43,068 nucleotides of DNA, taken from contig NZ_JACTUZ010000024.1 of assembly GCF_014490445.1 (NCBI RefSeq), positions 1 to 43,068 on the forward strand, in the 5' to 3' direction. This DNA comes from Pseudoroseomonas ludipueritiae (GTDB lineage: Bacteria > Pseudomonadota > Alphaproteobacteria > Acetobacterales > Acetobacteraceae). The notes under the pieces were generated by a model that saw nothing but the letters and a program-made list of their open reading frames with translations, had not been told where the DNA came from and did no database searches. Positions 29,459-38,726 of this stretch are shown here, one piece after another. Every line of letters starts with the position of its first letter. The first letter of the stretch is position 1. A program made the position numbers and the translations under genes.

Positions 29459-30433
29459 ATGTCCAAGCCGCTGCTGCTGCTGACCCGCCATTTTCCCCCG
29501 GCGGTGGAAGCCCGCGCCGCCCGCGACTACGCCACCATCCCCAATGCCGCCGATACGCCGATGACGGGGCCTGAGATCGTTGCCGCCGCACGGCAGGCCG
29601 AGCCCGCCGGCATCCTCTGCGCCGCCGGGGATGCGCTGAATGCCGAGACCATCGCGGCATTGCCGGAGAGCGTGCGGATCATCGCCACCTTCAGCGCCGG
29701 CACGGACCATATCGACCTAGGGGCGGCGGCGGCGCGCGGCATCCCGGTGGCGAATACGCCGGACGTGCTGAGCGTCGCCACCGCCGAAATCGCCATGCTG
29801 CTGATCCTTTCCGCCGCCCGCCGCGGTGGCGAGGCCGAGCGGATGGTGCGGGCCCGCCAATGGACCGGCTGGGCGCCGACGCAGCTCATGGGCGTGACGC
29901 TGGAAGGCAAGGTGCTGGGCATCCTCGGCATGGGCCGCATCGGACAGGCCCTGGCGCGCATGGCGCGTGGCTTCGGCATGGAGATCCATTACCGCAACCG
30001 CCGCCCATTGCCGGAGGCTGAGGCGCAGGGTGCCACCTATCACGACAGCGACGAGAGCTTCCTCGGCGCCATCGACGTGCTGTCCATGCATATCCCCGGC
30101 GGCGCGGCCACGCGGCATTGGCTGGACGCGCGGCGCATCGCCCTGCTGCGCCCCGGCGCCATCGTGGTGAATACCGGGCGCGGCTCCACGGTGGATGACT
30201 CGGCGCTCTGCGCGGCGCTGGAAAGCGGGCATCTGCGCGCGGCCGGGCTCGATGTCTTCGACGGCGAGCCACGGATCTTCGAAGGCTACCACAGCGCCCC
30301 CAATGTCGTGCTGTTACCCCATCTGGGCAGTGCCACGGTGGAGACGCGCGATGCCATGGGCTTCCGTGCCCTGGACAATGTCGATGCCGTGCTGTTGCGC
30401 GGCGAGGCACCGCCTTATCCGGCCACAACATAG
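29459..30433 (+). CDS. D-2-hydroxyacid dehydrogenase (D-glycerate dehydrogenase-like)
   Basis: 324 residues. Catalytic R241 (VVNTGRGSTVDD), E270 (FDGEPR) and H288 (LLPHLGSAT) are intact, and the NAD(P) loop is LGMGRIGQALAR near 156-167. Overall style (LLLLTRHFPPAVEARAARDY, TFSAGTDHIDLGAAAARGIPVANTPDVLS) places it near glyoxylate/hydroxypyruvate reductases. ATG at 29459 has AGGGAGG about 10 bases upstream. It is divergent from the SDR operon by 149 bases and is followed by the AT-rich leader of the sulfonate-binding protein. Third enzyme of this family in the window; the paralogues differ enough to expect different substrates. Confidence 0.88.
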   Translation: MSKPLLLLTRHFPPAVEARAARDYATIPNAADTPMTGPEIVAAARQAEPAGILCAAGDALNAETIAALPESVRIIATFSAGTDHIDLGAAAARGIPVANTPDVLSVATAEIAMLLILSAARRGGEAERMVRARQWTGWAPTQLMGVTLEGKVLGILGMGRIGQALARMARGFGMEIHYRNRRPLPEAEAQGATYHDSDESFLGAIDVLSMHIPGGAATRHWLDARRIALLRPGAIVVNTGRGSTVDDSALCAALESGHLRAAGLDVFDGEPRIFEGYHSAPNVVLLPHLGSATVETRDAMGFRALDNVDAVLLRGEAPPYPATT

Positions 30434-30442
30434 TGGATTATC

Positions 30443-30471
30443 TTATTTCACTATAAATTACCGATTAAACT
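30443..30471 (+). promoter_or_regulatory. Candidate promoter in an AT-rich stretch
   Basis: TTATTT (30443-30448) and TAAACT (30466-30471) are 17 bases apart in the only strongly AT-rich stretch of the area (30433-30498). An ATAGTG/CACTAT inverted repeat (30430-30435 with 30449-30454) and a TTACCG direct repeat (30458, 30474) overlap it and could bind a regulator such as a CysB-type activator. Tentative. Confidence 0.35.
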
Positions 30472-30498
30472 ATTTACCGGCGTATCGGAATCGTTAAT

Positions 30499-30521
30499 CC
30501 TGTCACCGGCTTGGTGACAGG
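30499..30521 (+). promoter_or_regulatory. Leader hairpin overlapping the ribosome site of a short ORF
   Basis: Perfect 9-bp stem CCTGTCACC/GGTGACAGG (30499-30507 with 30513-30521) with a GGCTT loop. No T-run follows, which argues against a simple terminator of the upstream dehydrogenase gene. Its last bases are part of the AGGAAG ribosome site (30519-30524) of the short ORF starting at 30531. Confidence 0.6.
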
Positions 30522-30530
30522 AAGCGGCCC

Positions 30531-30599
30531 ATGTCCGATCCGATCCGCATTTTCATCCGGCCCTGGAAAACGGGACGCAGACGATGTCGGCGGCACTGA
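30531..30599 (+). CDS. Candidate leader peptide upstream of the sulfonate-binding protein
   Basis: A 22-codon frame begins MSDPIRIFIRPWKTG and ends RRRCRRH. AGGAAG lies 6-8 bases before ATG, better than at many real genes here. The tail uses AGA, CGA and TGT in a row, codons that should be rare at this GC content, including the single Cys codon. It stops 40 bases before the start of a sulfonate-type binding protein. The peptide has no known domain. I infer a regulatory leader that senses Cys or Arg charging, not a functional protein; conservation would decide. Confidence 0.45.
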   Translation: MSDPIRIFIRPWKTGRRRCRRH

Positions 30600-30632
30600 A
30601 CCGACCTCTCCTTCCGTTCTGCCGACAAGAGG
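30585..30632 (+). promoter_or_regulatory. Candidate attenuator: competing RNA pairings around the ribosome site
   Basis: TGTCGGC (30585-30591, at the leader Cys codon) can pair with GCCGACA (30621-30627). GTCGG in the same place can instead pair with CCGAC (30601-30605). CCTCT (30605-30609) is complementary to the ribosome site AGAGG (30628-30632) of the binding-protein gene. These pairings largely exclude one another, the layout expected of a translation-sensing switch. Confidence 0.4.
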
Positions 30633-30639
30633 CCTTGCC

Positions 30640-31593
30640 ATGACCGATATCGTGATCCGGCGCCGCGCCACGCTACTGGCCGCCGCCGGAATTCTCGCCG
30701 CCCCCGCCATCCTGCGCGCGCAATCCCTGCCCGTGCTGCGCGTGGGCAACCAGAAAGGCGGCATCCGCTCCCTGCTGGAGGCTTCCGGGCAGGCGCGCGA
30801 CCTGCCCTTCCGCATCGAGTGGAGCGAGTTCCCCGCCGCCGCACCCTTGCTGGAGGCCCTGAATGCCGGCGCTCTGGATGTGGGCAGCCAGGGCGACCTC
30901 GCCTTCCTCGGCGTCTATGCCAATGGGGCGCCGATCCGCGCCGTCGGCGCCACGCGGGCCGAGGCGCGCAGCCAGGCCATCCTGGTGCCCGGCGACAGCC
31001 CGATCCGCAGCCTGGCGGACCTGCGCGGCCGCAAGGTGGCCGCCAACCGCGGCGGCTGGGGCCAGTACCTCGTCCGCGCGGCGCTGAAGGATGCCGGCAT
31101 CGACCCCGCCGAGGTGACACAGGCGGCGCTTGGGCCGATGGATGCGGCGCTGGCCTTCCGCTCCGGCTCAGTCGATGCCTGGGCGATCTGGGAACCTTAT
31201 GTGGCCATTGAGGTGGAAAGCTTCGGCGCCCGCGTGCTGCGCGACGGCACAGGGCTAACGCCTACCGTCAGCCTGACCTCGGTGCATGTGGACACGCTGA
31301 AGGACAAGCGGCCGCTGTTGCAGGAATTCCTGGTGCGGCAGCAGCGCGGCTGGGACTGGGCGCGGGGGAATGTCCCCGCCTTCGCCCGCAGCACCTCGGC
31401 TCTCACCCGCATTCCGGAGCCGCTGCTGCGCCGCGCTTACGAGAACCAGGCCACCAAGGCTGTCCCGGTGGATGCGGCCCTGGTGGCGGAACTGCAGCAG
31501 GCCAGCGATCAGGCCGTGCAGTTCGGGGTGCTCTCCCGCGCCATCTCGGTGGCAGAAGCCTTCGATACCAGCTTCACCCTGGCCGCCCGCTAA
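30640..31593 (+). CDS. ABC-type sulfonate/taurine-like substrate-binding protein
   Basis: 317 residues. The signal sequence has basic RRR at 7-9, a hydrophobic core and probable cleavage near AILRA-QS, with a twin-arginine flavour. The mature protein starts LPVLRVGNQKGGIRSLLEASG and contains FPAAAPLLEALNAGALDVGSQGDLAFLGVYANGAPIRAVG, RGRKVAANRGGWGQYLVRAALKDAGI and SVDAWAIWEPYVAIE, the SsuA/TauA-type NMT1-like fold. It should bind alkanesulfonates or related ligands in the periplasm. ATG at 30640 has AGAGG 7 bases upstream. No permease or ATPase gene is adjacent, so its transporter must lie elsewhere. The 3' end overlaps the convergent TetR gene by 20 bases. Confidence 0.87.
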   Translation: MTDIVIRRRATLLAAAGILAAPAILRAQSLPVLRVGNQKGGIRSLLEASGQARDLPFRIEWSEFPAAAPLLEALNAGALDVGSQGDLAFLGVYANGAPIRAVGATRAEARSQAILVPGDSPIRSLADLRGRKVAANRGGWGQYLVRAALKDAGIDPAEVTQAALGPMDAALAFRSGSVDAWAIWEPYVAIEVESFGARVLRDGTGLTPTVSLTSVHVDTLKDKRPLLQEFLVRQQRGWDWARGNVPAFARSTSALTRIPEPLLRRAYENQATKAVPVDAALVAELQQASDQAVQFGVLSRAISVAEAFDTSFTLAAR

Positions 31594-32167
31594 CCGGCAC
31601 CCAGGCGTCGATCAGCTTTTCGGCATTGGCGGCGGCGGCACCGGCCGGCCCGCCATCGCCGAAGATCTGACCGGAAACAAAGACACCCTCCATCAACAGC
31701 AGCAGGCCGTCGCCCAGCGCCGCCGGGTCGGTGGCGCCCATGGCGGCCGCCATCTCGCGGAGCGTGGCGCGGAGCTGCCGCTTATGGGCTTCGCTGACCA
31801 GGCGGGCGGGATGACCGGCCTCGGGGTACTCGACGGCGGCATTGGTCAGGCCGCAGCCACGATAGCCATCCCGCATCGCGCGTTCCCCGACCCCGCGCAG
31901 GAAGGCCAGGATCTGGGCCCGCGGGTCGCCAGGATGGGCCGCCCGCGCCGCATCGAAGCGCCCCCAGAAGGCATCGCAGTAATCGCGCAGGTAGGTTGCC
32001 GCCAATTCGTCCTTGGAGGAAAAGGCGCGGTACAGGCTGGGCTTGGTGACGCCGGCGCGATGGACGATCTCGTCCACCCCCACCGCCCTGATGCCGGCCC
32101 GGTAGAAAAGCTCGGCCGCGGTCTGGCGGATGCGGGCGGCGGCGCTGGGCTTGGCGGTCGTGCTCAT
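31574..32167 (-). CDS. TetR-family transcriptional regulator
   Basis: 197 residues. The N-terminal HTH spans about 8-55: AARIRQTAAELFYRAGIRAVGVDEIVHRAGVTKPSLYRAFSSKDELAATYL, the standard TetR pattern. The C-terminal ligand domain contains GCGLTNAAVEYPEAGHPARLV and resembles YcdC/TetR_C types acting on small hydrophobic or organic compounds. The gene is divergent from the MFS carrier with 73 bases between starts. That gap holds two matching palindromes, so it almost certainly represses the carrier and itself. Confidence 0.9.
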   Translation of the reverse strand: MSTTAKPSAAARIRQTAAELFYRAGIRAVGVDEIVHRAGVTKPSLYRAFSSKDELAATYLRDYCDAFWGRFDAARAAHPGDPRAQILAFLRGVGERAMRDGYRGCGLTNAAVEYPEAGHPARLVSEAHKRQLRATLREMAAAMGATDPAALGDGLLLLMEGVFVSGQIFGDGGPAGAAAANAEKLIDAWVPVSGRPG

Positions 32168-32240: not shown

Positions 32241-33512
32241 ATGCATATAGTCCAGCGTAGGCCTTTTGGCCAGAAATACGCCTTCGTGGTCGTGGGCGTG
32301 ATCTTCCTGGCACTGCTCGCGGCCGCCGGCCTGCGCGCCACGCCGGGCGTGCTGATCCTGCCGCTGGAGGAAGCCTTCGGCTGGGGCCGCGCCACCACCG
32401 CGCTCTCCGCCGGCATCGGCATCTTCCTCTACGGCATGGTGGGGCCTTTCGCGGCGGCGCTGATGACCACCTTCGGGCTGCGCCGCACGCTGCTCTGCGC
32501 CCTGGCGCTGATGGCGGCCTCCACCGCCGCCAGCAGCTTCATGACCCAGCCCTGGCACCTGATCCTGAGCTGGGGCGTGTTTTCCGGCATCGGCAGCGGC
32601 GCGGTAGCCATTGTGCTGGGCGCCACCATCACCAACCGCTGGTTCTCCACACATCGCGGCCTGATCATGGGCGTGCTGACCGCCAGCACCGCCACGGGCA
32701 GCCTGATCTTCCTGCCCATCCTGGCCTCCCTGGCCGAGGCCGGTGGCTGGCGCCCGGTGGTGCTGACCGTGTCGGCCGTGGTGGCCGCCGTGATCCCGCT
32801 GGTCTGGTGGCTGGTGCCGGAGAAGCCGGCCTCGGTGGGGCTGGTGCCCTATGGCGCCCCTCCGGGCTTCGTGCCGCCGCCGCCGCCCACCGGGCTGCTC
32901 TCGATCACCTTCGGCAGCCTAAAGCGCGCCGCGCGCACCCGCGCCTTCTGGTACCTCTTCGCCACCTTCTGGGTCTGCGGCTTCACCACCAACGGGCTGG
33001 TGGGCACGCATCTCATCGCGCTCTGCGGCGACATGGGCATCCCGGAGGTGCGGGCGGCCGGGCTGCTGGCGCTGATGGGCATCTTCGACCTCGTCGGCAC
33101 CACCCTCTCCGGCTGGCTGACCGACCGCTACGACCCGCGCAAGCTGCTGTTCCTGTATTACGGGCTGCGCGGCCTGTCCCTCATCTACCTGCCTTACTCC
33201 GATTTCTCGCTCTACAGCCTTTCCATCTTCGCGGTCTTCTACGGGCTGGACTGGATCGCCACCGTGCCGCCGACGCTGCGGCTGGCCACCGATGCCTTCG
33301 GGGAACGCGATGCCCCCATCGTCTTCGGCTGGATCGCCGCTGGCCACCAGATCGGCGCCGCCAGCGCCGCCTTCCTGGGCGGGCTGCTGCGCGACACCCA
33401 GGGCGACTACCTGACCATGTTCGTGCTGGCGGGCGTGACGGGACTCGTGGCGGCCGGCATCTCCCTGGCCATCCGGCGGGAGCCGGTGGCGGCCGTGCCG
33501 GTCAGCGCATAG
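32241..33512 (+). CDS. MFS transporter (oxalate/formate or monocarboxylate antiporter-like)
   Basis: 423 residues with 12 predicted helices. It begins FGQKYAFVVVGVIFLALLAAAGLRATPGVLILPLEEAFGW and has GSGAVAIVLGATITNRWFSTHRGLIMGVLTASTATG, a pattern common in the OFA/MCT branch of MFS. The central loop is proline-rich (YGAPPGFVPPPPPTG). The C-terminal half has GIFDLVGTTLSGWLTDRYDPRKLL, a motif-A copy. The likely cargo is a small organic anion, in keeping with a regulated uptake or efflux carrier. No ribosome site precedes ATG; operator 2 occupies that place. Regulation by the divergent TetR protein is strongly suggested. Confidence 0.87.
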   Translation: MHIVQRRPFGQKYAFVVVGVIFLALLAAAGLRATPGVLILPLEEAFGWGRATTALSAGIGIFLYGMVGPFAAALMTTFGLRRTLLCALALMAASTAASSFMTQPWHLILSWGVFSGIGSGAVAIVLGATITNRWFSTHRGLIMGVLTASTATGSLIFLPILASLAEAGGWRPVVLTVSAVVAAVIPLVWWLVPEKPASVGLVPYGAPPGFVPPPPPTGLLSITFGSLKRAARTRAFWYLFATFWVCGFTTNGLVGTHLIALCGDMGIPEVRAAGLLALMGIFDLVGTTLSGWLTDRYDPRKLLFLYYGLRGLSLIYLPYSDFSLYSLSIFAVFYGLDWIATVPPTLRLATDAFGERDAPIVFGWIAAGHQIGAASAAFLGGLLRDTQGDYLTMFVLAGVTGLVAAGISLAIRREPVAAVPVSA

Positions 33513-38650: not shown

Positions 38651-38726
38651 TGGCGTCCCCTAGGGGATTCGAACCCCTGTTACCGCCGTGAGAGGGCGGT
38701 GTCCTAGGCCTCTAGACGAAGGGGAC
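38651..38726 (-). tRNA. tRNA-Glu (anticodon CTC)
   Basis: The minus strand folds into a full cloverleaf of 76 bases with encoded CCA. The acceptor stem GTCCCC pairs with GGGGAC, the D-arm contains TCTAGAGGCCTAGGA, the anticodon stem CCGCC/GGCGG holds the loop CTCTCAC with CTC at 38690-38692, and the T-arm is AGGGGTTCGAATCCCCT. It decodes GAG. A promoter-like pair is seen just upstream at 38745-38773. Confidence 0.96.

Follow-up and report, generated by a model that had tools for sequence, protein, structure and literature searches.

The window, the whole analysed stretch of 43,068 nucleotides, carries on its forward strand ssuA, the gene for an aliphatic-sulfonate ABC transporter substrate-binding protein (30640..31593; TIGR01728, 186.7 bits against a cut-off of 163.5). 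Permease and ATPase genes are absent beside it. The left synteny anchor is a D-2-hydroxyacid dehydrogenase gene (29459..30433, forward strand; PF02826 and PF00389). The right anchors are a TetR-family regulator (31577..32167, reverse strand; PF00440) and an MFS transporter (32241..33512, forward strand; PF07690). The elements of the leader region lie between the dehydrogenase gene and ssuA, all on the forward strand.

The region begins with an AT-rich intergenic stretch (30434..30498), presumed from its sequence to be the promoter region. An earlier note on this DNA had called it promoter-like. Its AT content agrees with this, whereas a sigma-70 scan found no consensus promoter in the leader region. 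A perfect inverted repeat of 9 bp with a 5-nt loop follows (30499..30521), a candidate RNA hairpin or DNA operator. A base-by-base check placed its arms at 30499-30507 (CCTGTCACC) and 30513-30521 (GGTGACAGG). The 3' end of the repeat supplies the first bases of AGGAAG (30519..30524), the predicted Shine-Dalgarno sequence (SD) of an upstream leader ORF (uORF), which is kept in the nearest relative. The uORF (30531..30599) has 22 codons, encodes MSDPIRIFIRPWKTGRRRCRRH, starts with ATG at 30531 and stops with TGA at 30599. Its final codons are CGC AGA CGA TGT CGG CGG CAC. The stem, AGGAAG, 22-codon ORF and tail codons that the earlier note had named, and the coordinates it had given, all proved correct base by base.

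The proposed stalling site within the tail is CGATGTCGG (30582..30590), consisting of the rare arginine codon CGA, the rare cysteine codon TGT and the arginine codon CGG. In 13 window ORFs collected with a crude rule, CGA accounts for 2.1% of the Arg codons and TGT for 13.5% of the Cys codons. The best stem around the stop codon (30586..30605) pairs GTCGG with CCGAC and holds the uORF stop in its loop. The uORF is located directly upstream of ssuA on the same strand, with 40 nt between its stop and the ssuA start (ATG 30640). AGAGG (30628..30632) is, by its sequence, the ssuA ribosome-binding site. The 22-residue peptide had no NCBIfam or Pfam match, and Rfam gave nothing over 30400-30760 even at E 10. 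At gathering scores, Rfam matches the window in a single place, a tRNA gene (38654-38726, reverse strand).

Cysteine-codon ORFs before ssuC

The earlier note had read the uORF as a cysteine-codon leader before a sulfonate-uptake gene. This type of leader recurs: Cys/Arg-tailed uORFs precede ssuC, the permease gene with which intact ssu operons begin, in discovery and held-out loci. The SsuC of a relative (genome G008) was used as query against 397 family genomes and had a match in 106; 30 listed loci were scanned as the discovery set. Their uORFs include MRHAPRVPGPGPRLARRCRCRA (Belnapia), a frame ending in FAKRCRRP (Roseococcus pinisoli) and MKLNPPMAIGAFREPASAMCCRTA (Plastoroseomonas hellenica). 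Further uORFs before ssuC are MGPVPMCRACCRCRVRTGRAAPGLPG, MNDTPSRAAPFGHRRGCCRG, MNDTPPHAAPFCCRPALCRG, MMMSCPHAPPRPCCRGC and MHHSVALLDLRLARGRTGRRMRCRR. In roseomonads, the tails of these short ORFs before the stop read RCRR, CCRG, RCRCRA and similar. The window's own genome has a second ssu operon (G000:C49, L253) with the uORF MMHRTGHRMRGTGPGCRARASYGRCRRRR, tail GRCRRRR. This contig C49 holds ssuC and an ssuA homologue, and its transporter might serve the window SsuA.

For counting, a regular expression asked for RCR, CCR, CRR, CRG, CCP or CRC among the final 10 residues of a uORF 10-50 residues long. It was composed once the 30 discovery loci had been read, and 11 of these fail it. The remaining 19/30 ssuC upstream regions compare with 0.5 on average and at most 2 in 200 sets of dinucleotide shuffles and with 0 on the antisense strand. 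Windows of 300 nt further downstream on the same strand, within the genes, matched in 6/120 cases, which is above the shuffle rate. At least two Cys in a uORF were present at 22 of the same 30 loci (shuffle mean 6.2, maximum 13; antisense 7), and clustered Cys or RCR at 15 (shuffle mean 0.6, maximum 4; antisense 1). The held-out set comprised 40 further SsuC matches, scanned with the unchanged expression; contig-edge and many lower-ranked matches were left out. The closer loci matched in 6/20 cases (shuffle mean 0.77, maximum 3; antisense 0) and the more distant loci in 0/20 (shuffle mean 0.76, maximum 5; antisense 2). The held-out hit L283 (MLFTPNLPCRRCTSTLLA) may be a chance match. With the looser measure of at least two Cys, the closer loci scored 13/20, not clearly above chance (8.5 ± 1.8, maximum 13), and the more distant loci 6/20 (9.2).

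Control genes of the same genus gave 0/15 for sulfate-binding and 0/29 for cysK-type loci (antisense 1/15 and 2/29); two of the cysK loci (L340, L353) do not start at the cysK match, leaving 27 sound ones. The cysK-type loci L355 and L356 satisfied the looser criterion only, and the L355 frame lies inside a gene that is open in another frame. The loci are related, so none of these counts is independent. Together, discovery, held-out and control counts assign the signal to the closer roseomonad ssu operons. The uORFs very probably constitute a family of cysteine-codon leader ORFs before ssu operons.

Several other searches yielded candidates that were rejected. The nucleotide pattern CGATGTCGGCGGYNNTGA had a match in 79/299 family genomes; among the 30 loci listed, nine were near cysK and were discarded because the same bases encode, antisense, SAADIA inside a long open frame in 9/9 cases. 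These mimics of the leader tail beside cysK belong to a divergent gene (L064-L066, L073, L086, L089, L090, L092, L093), which we take to be an Rrf2-type regulator. A degenerate RCRR pattern was too common, with 114-138 matches per genome in three genomes. Weak peptide matches in the own genome (L002-L004) were dropped as chance.

The anatomy of the leaders was studied on 30 collected leaders, mostly picked for Cys tails and including the window, relatives and spacers, which inflates the following figures. Cys accounts for 52 of 617 codons. The last Cys is located 2-3 codons before the stop in 25/30 leaders (range 0-10); in the frames before ssuC of G008 and Roseomonas sp. KE0001, it is 6 and 10 codons away. 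The Cys codons are TGT in 42 and TGC in 10 cases, compared with TGT in 12/108 in the ORFs of four loci (Fisher 2.5e-18, not corrected for relatedness or selection). This bias may reflect an RNA-sequence constraint. The stop hairpin was evaluated as the best stem with the stop codon in its loop, against 500 shuffles of the downstream bases. In 32 leaders the mean score was 15.47 (shuffles 12.86 ± 0.57, maximum 14.47), and 30/32 leaders reached a score of at least 12 (shuffles 21.9 on average, maximum 28). The stem sequences vary: GCGGC/GCCGC, GTCGGGGC/GCCCCGAT, GGCGGC/GCCGCC, CGGGC/GCCCG and others.

Leaderless starts were examined in 20 hand-picked leaders in two groups, 15 of the 30 discovery loci and 5 held-out positives. 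The −10-like box TANNNT ends 6-9 nt before the ATG in 19/20 (mononucleotide shuffles: mean 1.4, maximum 5). At other distances it was found in 1/20 (15-20 nt before ATG) and in none (25-30 nt). An SD-like tetramer was present in 1/20. With the box at this distance and hardly any SD, the tested ssuC leaders are probably leaderless. Outside these 20, L239-L242 and L246 have SD-like tetramers, and the Belnapia and Roseicella leaders have an SD; two analyses placed the L248 start codon differently. Nine leaders were aligned over their first 12 codons; of the pairwise codon differences, 62/162 were synonymous in the coding frame against 28/141 and 28/142 in the shifted frames. A promoter-side element TTTGGGAAA-N5-CTCTTT occurs exactly once in 5/17 genus genomes (G016, G010, G014, G005, G006), always upstream of an ssu operon and its ssuC leader (L307-L311).

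These features also bear on a very unlikely reading in which the Cys/Arg tails are an RNA or protein-binding sequence (TGTCGCGG, or CGATGTCGG plus hairpin) and not translated. In its favour, TGTCG is common to many leaders, the stop hairpin exceeds chance and the Cys codon choice is skewed to TGT. Yet Cys also occurs as CCPA, CCRTA, MCRACCRCR and PCCRGC in differing sequence contexts. The start codon 6-9 nt after a −10-like box in 19/20, the synonymous excess in the coding frame and the missing signal on antisense strands and in shuffles of the same regions argue for translation. As compared across genomes, the data show a leader family with its Cys placement, codon bias and stop hairpin, and a −10-like box just ahead of the start codon in many ssuC leaders.

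Relatives and origin of the window leader

The nearest relative is Pseudoroseomonas wenyumeiae (L035/L133), with 97% SsuA identity and the uORF homologue VPHPIRIFIQPWRQGCRRCRRH. It keeps 18/18 stem bases, the SD, the ORF frame and the tail RRCRRH before the stop; in the loop, only 1/5 bases is the same. The sequence before the stem (30434-30494) is 73.8% identical, and the flanks overall 74-78%. The P. wenyumeiae uORF has two Cys with RR between them, the window uORF a single one. Between the two uORFs, 7 codon changes are non-synonymous and 3 synonymous, in comparison to 10 and 62 in ssuA. Constraint on the peptide thus appears limited to its tail, whereas ssuA is under purifying selection as judged from its codon changes. 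Conservation of the ORF, named in the earlier note as a check, accordingly seems to hold for the tail and not for the rest. Conservation of the stem, named likewise, is borne out by P. wenyumeiae and by a double-sided change in G008.

In G008, gene order recognised by sequence is dehydrogenase (the same gene as in the window, left of ssuC in locus L236), ssuC, ssuB (L236 5225-5974), a spacer, ssuA, TetR and MFS, the last two in the same place by protein sequence. Among NCBIfam models, NF008470 matches the G008 SsuC best, at 258 bits, which falls short of the cut-off of 347. In the window and in P. wenyumeiae the order is the same minus ssuCB. Before the G008 ssuC, at the matching place, lies the palindrome CTGTCGCCGG-ACCCGA-CCGGCGACAG, which differs from the window in one pair, A-T to G-C, changed on both sides. 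It is followed by an SD-like GGAGA and the uORF MPDPDRSPRDTACHRGGRP, whose stop overlaps the ssuC start. The 5' half of the window leader matches this region weakly in sequence (16/1000 shuffles as good); position and the palindrome with its double-sided change support the match. Part of the window uORF with its surroundings (30537..30606) aligns with the G008 ssuB-ssuA spacer, with synteny on both sides; without the shared core, 1/1000 shuffles was as good.

In our reading, ssuCB were lost by a deletion that fused the beginning of an ssuC leader to a Cys-bearing spacer frame before ssuA. The window uORF would be an SD-led chimera, with SD, hairpin and start from the ssuC leader and the Cys frame from the spacer before ssuA. 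The designation of ssuA as an orphan in the earlier note was right: the G008 synteny shows that ssuCB were lost in the window lineage, and this left ssuA without its partners.

CGATGTCGG is present before ssuA in G008 (MRPALSFRGRCRRR), in Roseomonas sp. KE0001 (G009/L136; MRRPRRERCRGG) and in P. oryzae (L153), where the frame MERCRRG stays open into ssuA. It is identical in 5/5 aligned segments before ssuA, which had been chosen for having it. P. vastitatis (L143), where ssuB also lies just before ssuA, lacks CGATGTCGG. Three relatives have a second Cys-bearing short frame between ssuB and ssuA besides the one before ssuC (L236 5974-6018; L136 and L153 before ssuA).

The conserved elements could instead be DNA sites, with the palindrome as an operator at the transcription start, control by a transcription factor and an incidental uORF. 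In keeping with an operator, the perfect inverted repeat shows covariation with G008. TTAATC stands immediately before it, and some ssuC promoters have TTTGGGAAA-N5-CTCTTT, once each in 5/17 genomes. We consider this reading quite improbable. The pattern TGTCACC-N5-GGTGACA occurs in 2/17 genus genomes, at one place in each, and is absent from the other 15, which argues against an operator of wider use. Nor would an operator lead one to expect Cys codons at 2-3 codons from a stop. Operator and leader layers may act together.

Proposed mechanism and known attenuators

The 22-codon ORF likely encodes a leader peptide through which sulfonate uptake responds to the supply of Cys-tRNA, as a member of the Cys/Arg-tailed family. 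A ribosome would translate the leader and, with charged Cys-tRNA scarce, would stall on the rare TGT 2-3 codons before the stop. The stall point would be at the foot of the hairpin whose loop holds the stop codon, and the hairpin would stay open. Expression of the downstream gene would presumably rise. With ample cysteine, the ribosome would finish and leave, the hairpin would re-form and expression would be low. A Cys a few codons from the stop, at the hairpin foot, is the geometry expected if a waiting ribosome keeps the hairpin open. The earlier note had named low Cys-tRNA or slow Arg decoding as the signal. Cys-tRNA sensing is the part that fits, and slow Arg decoding is inseparable from it: CGA adjoining TGT is common to the five aligned segments before ssuA, and across the 30 collected leaders the recurring feature is a Cys codon near the stop.

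RNA folding was less favourable to the competing helices of the earlier note. Their complementarity is real (TGTCGGC at 30585-30591 with GCCGACA at 30621-30627; CCTCT at 30605-30609 with AGAGG at 30628-30632), but TGTCGGC/GCCGACA loses to another pairing in the window. This pairing, which the earlier note did not name, CGATGTCGG at 30582-30590 with CCGATATCG of ssuA codons 2-5, has a probability of 0.99-1.0 in the window and of 0.22 or less in P. wenyumeiae, where TGTCGGC/GCCGACA is kept and wins. In the other three spacer homologues the core pairs elsewhere. Since the dominant pairing differs between window and homologues, neither the helices of the earlier note nor CGATGTCGG/CCGATATCG form a conserved switch. 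Masking the bases beneath a modelled stalled ribosome had no consistent effect either. In 24 leaders, mean start-site accessibility was 0.433 free, 0.432 with a ribosome stalled at the last Cys and 0.445 at the stop, without significant difference. A modelled stall lowered SD accessibility in the window from 0.59 to 0.08; in P. wenyumeiae it rose from 0.50, to 0.56 with the stall at the last Cys and to 0.82 with the stall at the first. The overall fold of the window leader is unexceptional (z −1.66; 11/200 shuffles as good). For two sets of ten whole leaders, the shared structures computed with alifold came to −16.4 and −2.2 kcal/mol. Intrinsic terminators, sought as a hairpin with a U-run, numbered 0 in the window (30380-30760) and in the ssuC leader of the own genome (L253 1150-1520). 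The C-rich spacer was rejected as a Rho site, as its skew is not specific to leaders: C over G skew was on average 0.29 in leader spacers, 0.25 before 21 cysK genes and 0.01 before 14 sulfate-binding genes.

The family before ssuC may be real and the window copy a decaying by-product without regulatory role, kept since little time has passed. This would suit the excess of non-synonymous over synonymous changes in the uORF pair (7 to 3), the single Cys of the window peptide, the orphan ssuA without permease and ATPase genes beside it, and the modelled stall that fails to free the SD. We regard it as rather unlikely. All 18 stem bases, SD, frame and the RRCRRH end are kept while the flanks are only 74-78% identical, ssuA shows 62 synonymous and 10 non-synonymous changes, P. 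wenyumeiae has two Cys codons, and the ssuC and ssuA homologue on C49 could provide a transporter for the window SsuA. The window copy probably still works as a leader; this is less certain than the family, since the copy arose by recent fusion and contains one Cys codon. A wider scenario has, in our view, an even chance: leaderless Cys-sensing leaders for sulfonate uptake evolved independently in Roseomonas relatives, in parallel to the mycobacterial ones and with a preferred layout of a rare TGT 2-3 codons ahead of a stop in a hairpin loop; some operons carry two sensors, before ssuC and internally before ssuA; and in the window lineage the ssuCB deletion fused both into one functional, SD-led sensor for the orphan binding protein.

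Transcription attenuators of the trp/his type have their regulatory codons towards the end of the leader ORF. The leaders described here share this position and differ by the lack of a terminator hairpin with U-run in the window region and in the own-genome ssuC leader. In translational attenuators of the ermC/cat type, a stalled leader ribosome opens the start of the next gene. This principle is also stated in PMC13236596. The proposed stall would likewise open the next start, and no intrinsic terminator was found; the proposed signal is Cys-tRNA and not a drug, and unmasking of the SD by the stall was not borne out by folding.

Leaderless polycysteine short ORFs are, reportedly in work by Canestrari et al. 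from 2020, cysteine-responsive attenuators of mycobacteria. In passages of other papers, leaderless ORFs with contiguous Cys codons are described as controlling the genes behind them through attenuation, with elongation being cysteine-dependent (PMC9031893), the mechanism is termed translation attenuation (PMC13236596), and six cysteine-rich sORFs of M. tuberculosis were analysed and predicted to be regulatory (PMC9094748). As far as these excerpts describe them, the mycobacterial attenuators resemble the leaders studied here by a short Cys-codon ORF before sulfur-supply genes and by the leaderless type of start, for which 19/20 tested ssuC leaders have the −10-like box and 1/20 an SD. Measured against the same excerpts, the Roseomonas leaders are from Alphaproteobacteria, precede sulfonate uptake and have an Arg-flanked, often single Cys, mostly at a distance of 2-3 codons from the stop, which itself sits in a hairpin loop. 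With its SD and 5' hairpin, the window copy departs from that leaderless start. Neither the window uORF nor that of P. wenyumeiae has contiguous Cys codons; CC does occur in some ssuC leaders. A further survey mentions an attenuator element upstream of a sulfonate ABC operon, likewise before the transporter operon (PMC2965389). By its title, it deals with premature terminators, none of which was seen here in the two scanned regions.

Among the titles listed from open-licence literature, none reported Cys-codon leaders of this kind in Roseomonas or before alphaproteobacterial ssu operons. If the proposal is true, cysteine-sensing leader ORFs extend from mycobacteria to Alphaproteobacteria and to sulfonate scavenging. 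The system offers a clear test of operon control by a leaderless leader ORF and of a rare codon kept at the sensing position. A regulatory ORF remade by a deletion is a natural experiment, with close relatives representing the states before and after. An Arg-flanked Cys with the stop 2-3 codons further on, inside a hairpin loop, is a searchable motif for unannotated leaders.

Other ssuA loci

Sets of 30, 78 and 23 ssuA loci, partly overlapping, were scanned. Cys-tailed frames in L042, L141/L217, L154, L192 and L221 looked like chance, and the other ssuA loci scanned had no convincing leader; many of these ssuA follow directly on another gene. Searches of plasmids gave seven Bradyrhizobium SsuA, all below 60% identity, and no leader. 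In L061 (G039), a frame ending in SPWRACRR before its stop is located 91 nt before ssuA and is a possible further leader directly before this gene. Tandem ssuA genes, the second directly behind the first, were present in L134, L141, L142, L146, L149, L151, L152 and L154.
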